Shown in pieces: positions 16,224-23,261 of a stretch of DNA of 64,000 bases (the stretch's first letter is position 1; each line of letters begins with the position of its first letter). The stretch covers positions 1 through 64,000 of the forward strand of contig JAKALM010000016.1 in assembly GCA_021824145.1 (NCBI GenBank), read 5' to 3'. The notes beneath the pieces were generated by a model. It worked only from the letters and a program-made list of their open reading frames with translations, had not been told where the DNA came from and searched no databases. Position numbers and translations under genes: made by a program. Origin of the DNA: Bacteroidota bacterium (GTDB lineage Bacteria; Bacteroidota; Ignavibacteria; Ignavibacteriales; Ignavibacteriaceae).

Positions 16224-16251
16224 GTAGAGACGCAAAGCTTTGCGTCTCTAC
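16224..16251. repeat. Perfect 28-bp palindrome between convergent genes
   Basis: Arms GTAGAGACGCAAAG and its exact complement meet without a loop. The element lies nine bases after the GH16 stop and overlaps the last codons and stop of the convergent quinone oxidoreductase gene. It can form a strong hairpin in either transcript, but no T-run follows. It may work as a bidirectional terminator, a mRNA-end stabiliser, or be a copy of a dispersed palindromic repeat. Confidence 0.8.
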
Positions 16252-19056: not shown

Positions 19057-21924
19057 TTGACTGACTTCGAATCGGCATTTCTTCAAATCAAATCGCTTGC
19101 AGAAACCTTCAAGCAAAATGAAACTAAATTCCTTTCAACCTCTTACCAGGAAGCAGATGTAAGAAATGATTTCATTAATAAATTCTTCATTGCTTTAGGT
19201 TGGGACGTAAGACACGAACATCAATTAAATCCCTATGAGCAGGAAGTAAAGGTTGAAAAGCCTGTGCTCATTGCAAGCCAGCAAAAGCGTGCCGATTATG
19301 CTTTCTTTATAGATCCTAATTATAGAGACGTTAAATTCTTTGCCGAAGCAAAAAAGCCAAGCCGTAACCTTTTTAATAAAGATGATTATTTTCAAACCTG
19401 CCGCTACGGATGGAACGCCGGTACTCCTATCGCTGTTCTTACAGACTTTGAAGAGTTCCACATTTTAGACTGCCGTTTTAAACCGGATATTAATAACATC
19501 ATTGATAATAAGATTGAAAGATTTCATTACTCCGATTACCTTGATAAAGAAAAACTATCTAAAATTTACTATCTCTTTTCGCGCGAAGCTGTAGCAAACA
19601 ATTCTTTAGAAAAATTTGCGGACAGCCTTCCTAAGCCCCGCGGTAAATCGGGCAAAAAAGGATTATTCAAGGGCGGCTATCAATCTATTGATGAATCTTT
19701 CCTTGAAGAGCTTGATGAAATCCGGCTTTCACTTGCTAAAGCTTTTAAAAATAATAACCAGGAATTAAACAGCGATGAACTTACCGAAATGACTCAGCGG
19801 ACTATCGACCGTCTCGTGTTCATTAGATTTCTTGAAGATAAAATAATTGAACCGGATGATTATATTGGAAAATTTGCTGTCTCTAAAAAGCCATGGGAAG
19901 ATTTTATTTCTGCTTCACGTACATTCGACGCTAAATACAACGGCATTGTATTTAAGAAACATAAAATAGACACAAATACTTTTCTGGAACCGGATGAAAA
20001 AATTTTTTCCTCTATCTGCAATAATCTTGCGCATAAAAATGCGCCATATAACTTTGACCAGATTCCTATTCATATTCTCGGCTCTATCTATGAAAGATTT
20101 CTCGGCAAGGTTGTTACTGCTACGGATAAGCGTGTTAAAATTGATGATAAGCCCGAAGTTAGAAAAGCCGGTGGAGTTTATTACACTCCTCAATATATTG
20201 TAAACTACATTGTCGATAATACTGTTGGCAAATTAATTGAAGGTAAAGAGCCGAAAGAAATTGCAAATATGAGGTTCGCAGATATTTCATGCGGCAGCGG
20301 TTCTTTTCTTATTACTGTGTTTGACAGGCTTCTCGATTACCATAAGAAATGGTATCAGAAGAATCCCAAGCAGGCAAAGAAGGACGGATGCCATCTGGAC
20401 GACGGTAAGTGGGTATTGTCATTAAAGCAAAAGCAAAAAATTCTTACACAGAATATTTACGGTGTGGATATCGACCATCAAGCTGTGGAAGTTACACAGC
20501 TATCACTTTATCTAAAGCTGCTTGAAGACGAGACAACAGCAACTGCAAACGATACATGGGTAATGTTTAAAGAAAAGCTTCTGCCAAGCTTAAATAAAAA
20601 TATTATATGCGGAAACTCCTTAATCGGCACAGACATTTTTGAAGAAGATTTATTCACACCCCTCTCCTTACTAAGGAGAGGGGCTGGGGGTGAGGTCGAC
20701 GAACTGAAACTCAAGCCCATGAACTTTGAAGACGCCTTTCCCGACATAATGAAGAACGGCGGCTTCGATGCGATTGTGGGTAATCCACCATATGTAAATC
20801 TGGTTTCACTTGACGAATTTGAAAGGAAATATTTCCAAAAGAATTACAAAACATGTAAAAATAAAAGTGATTTGTATTCCTTCTTTTTAGAGAAAGCAGT
20901 ATTACTCTCTAAAAAGGATTCTTTTAAATTTGGATATATAGTCCCACATACTTGGACTGCAACAGAAAGCTTTGAACCTCTTAGAAAAATCCTTATAGAT
21001 AATGACTATATTGAAAGCATTACTGTTTTGGGTTTTAATGTTTTTAAAAAAGTTATTGTAAGTACGCTAATAGTTATATGTTCTCCTGGAAATCACTCAA
21101 TAAGAGTACTTAACAATAAATTTAACGAGAAATTTAAAATAAGTACTAAAACATTATTAGCTAATAATTATCATATAGACCTGGATTGGAATCAAAATAG
21201 ACAAGCATTATTAGATAAATTAAAACTAAAAACCATTCCTCTTGAGAATATTATACAGTTTTCAAGAGGAATAAAGACTAGTAATGATAAAAGATTTATT
21301 TCAACTATACAAAAAAATTCGGACTATAAAAGAATATTTCGTGGTCGAAATATAAAAGCATATCAATTAAACTGGAATGGGGAGTATATTTGGTACAGAC
21401 CTGATTTGATGAAACAAAAAGTTGGTTGTCTCCCCCATTCAAAAGAATTTTTTGAGGCGCCTCAAAAACTTATAACGCAAAGAGTAAATAGTTCGATGCA
21501 ATTACTTGTTGCTTATGATAATGAGAAGAATTATTTTCTTGATACAACTAATGTTTCTAGATATGATTCTTGGGATAAGAAACACTCTTTTAAATATATT
21601 TGTGCAGTACTTAATTCAAAACTAATTAATTATTGGTATTGTAATAATTATAAGATGCCTACAATTGGGCTTTATGAATTACATTCCATTCCTTTCAAGC
21701 AGGTCGATTTCAAAATAAATTTAGAAAAATCACTTCACGATAAACTCGTTCATCTTGTTGATCAAATGCTCGAATCAAAAAAGAAATTGCAAGAAGTAAA
21801 AACCGAAAGCGAAAAAAACTACCTTGAAAACAAATGCAATACAATCGACAGGCAAATAGACACCATCGTTTACGAGCTATACGGTTTAACGGAAGACGAA
21901 ATTAAAATAGTGGAAGGAAATTAA
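19057..21924 (+). CDS. Type IIG restriction enzyme/DNA methyltransferase (Eco57I-like)
   Basis: A 955-residue fusion of nuclease, methylase and target-recognition domains. The N-terminal nuclease has RADYAFF and FFAEAKKPS, matching a PD-(D/E)XK site. The N6-adenine methylase has motif I ADISCGSGSFL near 408 and motif IV VGNPPYVNL near 575. The last 300 residues look like a TaqI-type specificity domain. The start is TTG at 19057 with AAGGTGG just upstream. Such enzymes cut unmodified DNA and methylate their own site, needing AdoMet. A palindromic repeat is inserted in frame at codons 534-547, between motifs I and IV. No frameshift is seen, so the gene looks intact. No separate specificity subunit is near. 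Confidence 0.9.
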   Translation: MTDFESAFLQIKSLAETFKQNETKFLSTSYQEADVRNDFINKFFIALGWDVRHEHQLNPYEQEVKVEKPVLIASQQKRADYAFFIDPNYRDVKFFAEAKKPSRNLFNKDDYFQTCRYGWNAGTPIAVLTDFEEFHILDCRFKPDINNIIDNKIERFHYSDYLDKEKLSKIYYLFSREAVANNSLEKFADSLPKPRGKSGKKGLFKGGYQSIDESFLEELDEIRLSLAKAFKNNNQELNSDELTEMTQRTIDRLVFIRFLEDKIIEPDDYIGKFAVSKKPWEDFISASRTFDAKYNGIVFKKHKIDTNTFLEPDEKIFSSICNNLAHKNAPYNFDQIPIHILGSIYERFLGKVVTATDKRVKIDDKPEVRKAGGVYYTPQYIVNYIVDNTVGKLIEGKEPKEIANMRFADISCGSGSFLITVFDRLLDYHKKWYQKNPKQAKKDGCHLDDGKWVLSLKQKQKILTQNIYGVDIDHQAVEVTQLSLYLKLLEDETTATANDTWVMFKEKLLPSLNKNIICGNSLIGTDIFEEDLFTPLSLLRRGAGGEVDELKLKPMNFEDAFPDIMKNGGFDAIVGNPPYVNLVSLDEFERKYFQKNYKTCKNKSDLYSFFLEKAVLLSKKDSFKFGYIVPHTWTATESFEPLRKILIDNDYIESITVLGFNVFKKVIVSTLIVICSPGNHSIRVLNNKFNEKFKISTKTLLANNYHIDLDWNQNRQALLDKLKLKTIPLENIIQFSRGIKTSNDKRFISTIQKNSDYKRIFRGRNIKAYQLNWNGEYIWYRPDLMKQKVGCLPHSKEFFEAPQKLITQRVNSSMQLLVAYDNEKNYFLDTTNVSRYDSWDKKHSFKYICAVLNSKLINYWYCNNYKMPTIGLYELHSIPFKQVDFKINLEKSLHDKLVHLVDQMLESKKKLQEVKTESEKNYLENKCNTIDRQIDTIVYELYGLTEDEIKIVEGN
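20657..20698. repeat. Palindromic repeat inserted in frame in the type IIG gene
   Basis: CCCCTCTCCTTA and TAAGGAGAGGGG are perfect 12-bp arms around one base (20659-20683), followed by a GGGGGTGAGGTC tail. In the reading frame it encodes TPLSLLRRGAGGEV, which is unlike the surrounding charged linker. The same 12-bp arms recur at 21936-21960, and both elements end in GGTGAGGTC. It sits in a linker just before the NPPY motif, where an insertion is tolerable. Confidence 0.88.
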
Positions 21925-22012
21925 CCTCACCCCTTCCCCTCTCCTTAGTAAGGAGAGGGGTTTATTAGTCCCTCTCCTTCATAAGGAGAGGGTGGCTTTA
22001 GCCGGGTGAGGT
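21925..22012. repeat. Compound palindromic element upstream of the DUF559 gene
   Basis: Outer arms CCTCACCC (21925-21932) and GGGTGAGG (22004-22011) enclose two hairpins. One is CCCCTCTCCTTA-G-TAAGGAGAGGGG (21936-21960). The other is CCCTCTCCTT-CAT-AAGGAGAGGG (21970-21992). The element starts directly after the stop of the type IIG gene and ends 13 bases before the DUF559 start. It belongs to the same family as the in-frame copy at 20657-20698. Confidence 0.9.
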
Positions 22013-22025
22013 CAAAAGGTATAAC

Positions 22026-22397
22026 ATGACAATACACTACAACAAACAATCCGAAAAGCAAAACCGGAGACTCCTGCGCAAAAACCAAACGCAAGCTGAA
22101 GAATTAGTTTGGATGTATCTAAGAAAAAGACAAATGAAAAATCAAAAATTCAGAAGGCAATATTCAATTGATAAATACGTCATCGACTTCTACTGCCCCC
22201 AACTAAAATTAGCTGTTGAGCTTGACGGAGACGTGCATGACATGCCGGAACAAAAAGAACATGATATTGATAGACAAAATTATTTGGAAAAATTCGGTAT
22301 TAAATTTCTGCGAATAAGAAACAAAGAACTGTTCGGTAATCCGAACAAAGCTTTTGAAAAAATAGAAAAAGTTATCGGCAGCTTATTATGCAGTTAG
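22026..22397 (+). CDS. DUF559-family nuclease-like protein
   Basis: A 123-residue protein of the DUF559 group, related in fold to very-short-patch-repair and other PD-(D/E)XK endonucleases. The pattern is present: KFRRQYSIDKYVIDFYC (D54, C57), AVELDGDVH (E65, D67, H71) and a final IKFLRIRNKEL. The N-terminal part QTQAEELVWMYLRKRQMKNQ is the usual helical lead-in. The ribosome site AAAAGG lies between the repeat end and the ATG. The gene is immediately preceded by a compound palindrome whose relative sits in the neighbouring restriction gene. Function of the family is not established; repair, restriction and repeat mobility are all possible. Confidence 0.88.
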   Translation: MTIHYNKQSEKQNRRLLRKNQTQAEELVWMYLRKRQMKNQKFRRQYSIDKYVIDFYCPQLKLAVELDGDVHDMPEQKEHDIDRQNYLEKFGIKFLRIRNKELFGNPNKAFEKIEKVIGSLLCS

Positions 22398-22512: not shown

Positions 22513-22559
22513 TTGACAAAAGGTTTTGTGTCAGCCGCAATTTTTATTTGGAAATAGAA

Positions 22560-23261
22560 ATGCAACCGCAAAAAAATAAAATATATTATTCATCAACCTT
22601 CGCTTCCCGCGCCATTAACTTTTTCCTCAATTTTACTCCACATAGCGGCCTTCCCAAAAACATTCAAACAATGAATCCGTATGAAACAGAAGAAGTAAAA
22701 AACATCATTATAGAATTCTACAAAAAATATTTTGATGACAACCACAATAGAATTTTAGCGCTCGGAATAAATCCTGGAAGGTTTGGCGGCGGCATTACTG
22801 GTATCTCATTTACTGATCCAATTGCGCTCGAAAAGTACTGCGGTATTAAAAATAGCTTCGATAAAAAGAAAGAAATCTCCAGTGAATTTATTTATTCTTT
22901 TATTTCAAAGTTCGGCGGCACTGAAAGGTTTTATTCAAAATATTTTATTAGCGCGCTTTATCCGCTTGCACTTATTAAAGACGGCCTGAACTATAATTAC
23001 TACGATGAAAAAAAACTGTATAAAATTTTGAAGCCTGCGATTGTAGAATCTATTAAAGCCCACATTGAATTTGGTACAAGAACGAATTTGGTAATTTGCC
23101 TTGGGCGGAAGAACGGTTTCTACCTAAAAGAAATAAATGAAGAGAATAATTTTTTTGAAAAAATAATTGTGCTCGATCATCCGAGGTACATTATGCAATA
23201 CAAAAGAAAAGCGATGAACAAATACCTGAAAGATTATCTTCAAGCTTTTAATAATTCATAA
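22560..23261 (+). CDS. SMUG2-like uracil-DNA glycosylase family protein (DUF4918)
   Basis: A 233-residue protein of the uracil-DNA glycosylase superfamily. The water-activating motif is LGINPGRFGGGITG (69-78 for the core), close to the GMNPGPFG of SMUG1. The DNA-intercalation motif is VLDHPRYIMQY near the C terminus. SMUG-type enzymes excise uracil or oxidised pyrimidines. The asparagine after GI matches the SMUG type. A TTG at 22548 could start it four residues earlier. It follows the DUF559 gene by 162 bases and ends the accessory block. A repair role is likely; a link to the nearby restriction genes is only positional. Confidence 0.82.
   Translation: MQPQKNKIYYSSTFASRAINFFLNFTPHSGLPKNIQTMNPYETEEVKNIIIEFYKKYFDDNHNRILALGINPGRFGGGITGISFTDPIALEKYCGIKNSFDKKKEISSEFIYSFISKFGGTERFYSKYFISALYPLALIKDGLNYNYYDEKKLYKILKPAIVESIKAHIEFGTRTNLVICLGRKNGFYLKEINEENNFFEKIIVLDHPRYIMQYKRKAMNKYLKDYLQAFNNS

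Follow-up and report, generated by a model that had tools for sequence, protein, structure and literature searches.

Does the compound palindrome that lies immediately in front of a DUF559 gene in a Bacteroidota bacterium (GTDB lineage Ignavibacteria; Ignavibacteriales; Ignavibacteriaceae; assembly GCA_021824145.1, contig JAKALM010000016.1, positions 1 to 64,000) belong to a mobile element linked to that gene, or is it there by chance? The initial annotation of this stretch of 64,000 nucleotides, which is called the window here, proposed a REP-type element spread by a DUF559 nuclease, comparable in logic to RAYT transposases with REP sequences. We examined the structure of the palindrome, its distribution relative to DUF559 genes within and beyond the class, the occupancy of individual sites, and the predicted fold of the DUF559 protein.

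A compound palindrome precedes a DUF559 gene

The palindrome occupies 87 bases (21925-22011, forward strand), starting right after the stop codon of a type IIG-like restriction-methylase gene (19057-21924, forward strand; Pfam Eco57I, E 4.4e-37; PADLOC REase_MTase_IIG). It consists of a left tag, CCTCACCC (21925-21932), hairpin 1 with 12-bp perfect arms, CCCCTCTCCTTA-G-TAAGGAGAGGGG (21936-21960), hairpin 2 with 10-bp perfect arms, CCCTCTCCTT-CAT-AAGGAGAGGG (21970-21992), a small hairpin, TGGCTTTAGCC (21993-22003), and a right tag, GGGTGAGG (22004-22011), which faces the DUF559 gene. By eye, other genomes have other sequences that can pair in the place of the small hairpin (GTCCTTCGGAC in genome G169 and GTTCCTTCGGAAC in genome G215). 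The DUF559 gene (22026-22397, forward strand; 123 amino acids; PF04480, E 1.7e-30) starts 14 bases after the palindrome, and not 13 as initially annotated. A related single hairpin+tag unit lies in frame inside the restriction-methylase gene at 20659-20695 (forward strand), where it reads TPLSLLRRGAGGEV; this gene is regarded as a host of the unit and not as part of the element.

We next asked whether these structures exceeded chance expectation. The compound palindrome can fold as one continuous stem, in which the two tags pair and the first arm of hairpin 1 can pair with the second arm of hairpin 2, with an energy of -29.7 kcal/mol and a z score of -7.81, and none of 200 shuffled sequences folded as well. 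The window holds 12 perfect hairpins (arms of at least 10, loop of at most 8), compared to 0 to 4 in 12 dinucleotide shuffles. Another perfect palindrome, GTAGAGACGCAAAGCTTTGCGTCTCTAC (16224-16251), lies at a gene boundary and may belong to yet another dispersed class. In the whole genome, the pattern CCCTCTCCN{1,20}GGAGAGGG occurs five times and the reversed control pattern does not occur, while only one DUF559 match was found. Contigs C7 and C23 of this genome hold further copies with tag and hairpin. The C23 site, in the spacer before pgk, has a diverged copy in genome G307 and, by eye, no copy in G302, G260, G266, G303, G304, and G251, all of the same genus. No repeat like the compound was found in the 300 bases after the DUF559 gene of the window (score 7 direct and 11 inverted, compared to background pieces of the window scoring up to 19), and thus this copy is one-sided. 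No known Rfam RNA was matched in the window between 18000 and 24000, and the DUF559 protein gave only partial, weak matches to PADLOC defense genes.

Repeats are enriched near DUF559 genes

In the order, 42 of 59 genomes have DUF559 and 38 of 59 have the tag+arm pattern, for which the reversed control gave 0 to 2 occurrences per genome. For the 25 genomes in which the positions of the pattern were listed, 134 repeat sites were compared to 64 DUF559 matches. Eleven sites were within 200 bp of a DUF559 match, with 0.076 expected by chance, and 16 were within 500 bp, with 0.135 expected. Conversely, 118 of the 134 sites were more than 500 bp from a DUF559 match, and only 12 of the 64 DUF559 matches had this exact repeat within 500 bp; other DUF559 genes have other variants. 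We also used a test without a fixed motif, in which 250 bp upstream was compared with 250 bp downstream. A score of at least 25 was obtained for 20 of 40 standalone DUF559 loci and for 17 of 1245 control positions, and in a set of named loci from several phyla, which includes the query's own locus, a score of at least 30 was obtained for 46 of 72 loci and for 20 of 1418 control positions. The flanks of standalone DUF559 genes also resembled those of other loci, with 86 of 138 flanks matching a DUF559 flank of another locus, compared to 6 of 241 control windows.

At the genome level, 187 of 294 genomes of the class have DUF559 and 159 have the hairpin. The hairpin is present in 129 of the 187 genomes with DUF559 and in 30 of the 107 without it (odds ratio [OR] 5.7, p 1e-11; stratified by family, OR 6.8, p 6e-9), and five or more copies are present in 67 of 187 and 5 of 107, respectively. 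Copies at the DUF559 loci themselves add to this association, and the copy threshold removes that only in part. Some of the 30 genomes without a DUF559 match have the hairpin often (G047, 32; G030, 18; G206, 18). Y1_Tnp, the enzyme family of RAYTs, is found in 231 of the 294 genomes. Within Y1 strata, DUF559 had an OR of 5.1 (p 1e-9) for the presence of the hairpin and 10.8 (p 3e-8) for five or more copies, whereas within DUF559 strata Y1_Tnp had an OR of 2.7 (p 0.002) and 1.8 (p 0.22), respectively. When stratified by family as well, the two effects on presence were about equal (6.0 for DUF559 and 6.4 for Y1_Tnp), which slightly lowers our confidence in the explanation favored below. Y1 enzymes, or a general load of mobile DNA, may thus matter too.

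Small GIY-YIG genes of the same class of genomes were meant as a negative control, but this control did not come out clean. A flank score of at least 30 was measured for 13 of 26 GIY-YIG loci (control positions, 7 of 132), more than for the 7 of 23 DUF559 best-hit loci in the same analysis (control, 0 of 92). Their repeats are of a different dispersed palindrome class (TGTCATnCTGAG..GTCGAAG.ATGACA), although some may be tandem gene copies; tandem arrays of GIY-YIG matches with equal scores were seen in genomes G165 (contig C1, 120132-122135), where they are 450 bases apart, and G283 (contig C2, 77137-77927). Motifs of the CCCTCTCC/CCTCACCC type were present in 32 of 56 DUF559 loci of the class, 52 of 70 named DUF559 loci, and 0 of 26 GIY-YIG loci (control windows, 5 of 56, 5 of 61, and 0 of 26), and motifs of the GTCGAAG type were present in 5 of 56, 14 of 70, and 13 of 26 (controls, 4 of 56, 11 of 61, and 5 of 26). 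Both motif sets were chosen after the flanks had been seen, and these counts are therefore descriptive. These results show that repeat flanks are not special to DUF559.

DUF559 domains lie in frame within unrelated genes

Many DUF559 domains lie in long open frames, bounded by peptides such as SPSPSGRGAGGEG and PSPPAPLPEGEG, which by eye are translated palindromes. The initial annotation had suggested that DUF559 proteins often carry N-terminal extensions that are translated copies of such repeats, and the open frames of several DUF559 genes do run up through translated repeats. In the named set, 48 of 80 domains are in frames of at least 240 amino acids, a share that is biased because the query came from such a case. 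Host proteins were assigned by Pfam. These were MetH at three different places (between the two B12-binding domains in locus L040, before them in L149, and before the activation domain in L152), UvrC (L032), HsdR (L039, L051), HsdM (L045, L054, L145), HsdS (L143, L154), ValRS (L142), MetRS (L150), LeuRS (L050, L178), a DEAD/DUF3418 helicase that we take for HrpA (L166), a RecQ-type helicase (L056, near its C-terminus), a Mur-ligase-like protein (L164), glycoside hydrolase 2 (L044), and DNA methylases (L049, L055, L057). DUF559 is also fused in frame ahead of HisA in Segetibacter records (L200, L202, L205, L208) and ahead of TrpA in a Chitinophagales record (L207), with repeat-like peptides at the joint; the L200 and L207 fusions are supported by Pfam. 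No splicing domain was reported in the Pfam scans of 26 host frames, although in L057 (3283-6750) DUF559 lies between stretches that by eye look like intein splice motifs. In locus L015 (genome G172, contig C16), a frame that by eye resembles a REP-associated Y1 transposase lies downstream of a DUF559-bearing HsdS-like frame.

Empty, full, and scarred sites at metH

A 78-amino-acid MetH stretch was used to find metH in 58 of the 59 genomes of the order, and nine of these have the full insertion as judged by frame length (1375 to 1406 amino acids). Of 30 loci that were read, five are full, two (L104 and L123) keep a remnant without nuclease, and 23 have the plain linker of 45 to 48 amino acids. 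Full and empty alleles occur within one genus: G257 versus G000, G251, G260, and G266; G298 versus G125; and G215 versus G019. On a tree of the host protein (34 loci, 9 full), the full state needs 8 changes, whereas shuffled labels need 8.2 on average and 300 of 500 shuffles are as low, so that occupancy shows no relation to host phylogeny. In contrast, on a tree of 158 DUF559 domains, which has few columns and many open forks, the metH group needs only 2 changes (shuffled, 8.9). The uvrC, metRS, hisA, hsdM, and Mur-ligase-like groups need one change each, but hsdR needs 2 for 6 rows, leuRS needs 2 for 2 rows, and the HsdS-inserted domains cluster little (5 changes for 7 rows). Same-site clades with scattered presence are what homing predicts, although repeated loss from an old insertion is not excluded. 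Co-conversion around the metH site was weak, with an identity excess of full-full over full-empty pairs of about 0.03 near the site, though the residue before P in the linker motif is E in 10 of 11 full or remnant alleles and in 0 of 23 empty ones.

E. coli ycjD and boxC-like repeats

In E. coli, ycjD, between sapF and fabI, is a DUF559 gene with GGAGAGGG-TTA-GGGTGAGG units beside it, which probably correspond to the repeats known as boxC. One genome has 12 strict units and no reversed ones. The start of ycjD overlaps a separate hairpin (CACCTCATTCTGACA..TGTCAGAATGAGGTG), and a shorter relative of that hairpin follows sapF in a strain without ycjD. The ycjD region (721 bases) is covered by at least 80% in 3333 of 5426 genomes. 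In a spread listing, 37 ycjD+ chromosome rows had a median of 17 places matching any part of the query by blastn, compared to 13 for 7 ycjD- rows and 4 for 15 further ycjD- rows (p 2.8e-9 for plus against all minus). These counts are confounded with lineage, and some ycjD- rows keep 10 to 16 places. The sites also vary between strains. At gntP-fimH, the three short alleles fetched lack the unit; at ybdD-cstA, three of six alleles have it and three lack it; and at wzxC-wcaK, the one allele fetched lacks it. At argE-ppc and ypfG-tkt, presence and absence are not clean, since other alleles carry other sequence there that by eye is REP-like. No clear target-site duplication was seen in the alignment of five E. 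coli sites. The presence of ycjD where eefRABCD is absent has been reported (PMC12817139), with no mention of repeats in the parts of that work examined.

Predicted fold of the DUF559 protein

The structural model of the window protein has a mean pLDDT of 90. Its best PDB match is NGO0050 (3hrl, E 1.8e-6), followed, among characterized enzymes, by the homing endonuclease I-Bth0305I (3r3p, E 3e-4, TMt 0.72) and, lower, by Vsr (1cw0, E 0.012); mitochondrial ribosome proteins also match. The protein is thus predicted to be a Vsr-like PD-(D/E)XK nuclease, and a DUF559 gene has previously been placed in the EDxHD family (PMC9403480).

Discussion

The interpretation made in the initial annotation is supported, in that both enrichment of the repeat near DUF559 genes and empty sites (metH, the spacer before pgk, and E. 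coli gntP-fimH and ybdD-cstA) were found; the in-frame insertions in essential genes, the E. coli pair, and the predicted homing-endonuclease fold were not part of it. The explanation that we favor, with moderate confidence, is that the DUF559 gene and the palindromes form one selfish mobile system, in which a small homing-endonuclease-like nuclease has its own class of palindromes (tag plus hairpin, often two units inverted). We infer that this protein breaks or nicks DNA at or near its targets and that repair copies either the whole cassette (palindrome-DUF559-palindrome) or palindromes alone into new places. Neither cutting nor movement has been shown, and that DUF559 itself recognizes or moves the repeats stays an inference. 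Palindromes without the gene would be non-autonomous copies or scars left when the gene is lost between flanking repeats. Compound units on both sides, as the peptides in the uvrC insertions suggest, would allow such a loss with a palindrome left behind, like the metH remnants. Insertions that keep the frame would be tolerated inside genes as loops.

Other explanations were considered and appear less likely. It is possible, though unlikely, that DUF559 is a plain site-specific homing endonuclease whose targets are the host genes, with the palindromes only gathering at its ends as linkers, terminators, or recombination scars. The predicted fold, the insertion-site clades, and the patchy metH occupancy agree with this, but solo palindromes far from DUF559 are common, repeat number goes with DUF559, and standalone DUF559 genes between ordinary genes share the repeats. 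Somewhat less likely still is that another enzyme, such as a Y1 (RAYT-like) transposase, moves the palindromes while DUF559 is a passenger or profits from the repeats as landing places. The frequency of Y1_Tnp and its own effect on repeat presence, the repeats in genomes without DUF559, and the REP/REPIN-like architecture favor this possibility. However, DUF559 keeps its effect within Y1 strata, Y1_Tnp has little effect for five or more copies, and the repeats adjoin DUF559, whereas by inspection of partial lists for the same genomes no Y1 place lies within 10 kb of a repeat site.

A role for DUF559 as a Vsr-like repair nuclease, as reported for Caulobacter VsrA (PMC12907096), with the nearby repeats being incidental or sites that need repair, is doubtful. 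A UDG-superfamily gene does follow the DUF559 gene in the window (22548-23261) and Vsr is among the fold matches, but this role does not explain in-frame insertion in many unrelated genes, flank repeats, or patchy alleles, and the neighboring methylase matches adenine-type families. Finally, strong hairpins occur in many spacers, but that the palindromes are ordinary terminators or mRNA-stabilizing hairpins, near DUF559 by chance or for its expression, is very improbable given the in-frame copies in coding sequence, the repeats on both sides of the gene, the presence and absence between strains, and the enrichment over other positions. A feature of this genome alone and a part of the neighboring restriction system only were also rejected, since the association extends to many genomes and DUF559 stands beside or inside many unrelated genes.

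Among known systems, REP/REPIN (BIME) palindromes with RAYT (TnpA-REP) transposases share with the present element a short palindrome with a conserved tag, two inverted units that can form one long hairpin, dispersed copies, a nuclease gene flanked by copies, and a repeat number that goes with the nuclease. They differ in that the tag here is CCTCACCC/GGGTGAGG-like and not GTAG/CGTC (PMC3733652), the adjoining enzyme is DUF559 and not a Y1 HUH enzyme, and insertion occurs in frame in essential genes. EDxHD/Vsr-like homing endonucleases (I-Bth0305I) resemble DUF559 in predicted fold, with patchy occupancy of one site and insertion-site clades, but the copies scanned here lie free-standing or directly in frame, without a splicing domain in the Pfam scans, and are bounded by dispersed palindromes. 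Rickettsia palindromic elements also lie in frame inside coding genes (PMC3733652) but are found in other taxa, and the palindromes described here have a candidate nuclease partner. Caulobacter VsrA shares the DUF559 domain but is reported as a repair-type nuclease, with no mention of repeats in the part of that work examined. No paper linking DUF559, or ycjD, with palindromic repeats was seen in searches of open-access literature, which do not cover subscription papers and most preprints, and searches for the repeat DNA or peptides gave only what look like chance strings in the part of the results viewed.

The GIY-YIG results suggest a wider rule, which is tentative and on present evidence somewhat less likely than not: small standalone nucleases of unrelated folds may each carry and spread their own class of dispersed palindromes, DUF559 the CCTCACCC/CCCTCTCC class and GIY-YIG the TGTCATnCTGAG..GTCGAAG class, beside the known Y1/REP pairs. 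Such pairs would be a general class of minimal mobile elements, able to enter essential genes in frame, and would explain many orphan bacterial palindromes, E. coli boxC among them. Dispersed palindromes are an old puzzle of bacterial genomes, for which REP with RAYT appears to be the main case with a partner enzyme. A DUF559 partner would give an enzyme to a second large class, boxC-like repeats of E. coli included, and make its movement testable in a strain. It would also give a role to a common domain of unknown function and would show a mobile element that lives inside essential proteins (MetH, UvrC, tRNA synthetases) with no sign of splicing in the Pfam scans, which bears on protein evolution and on gene annotation.
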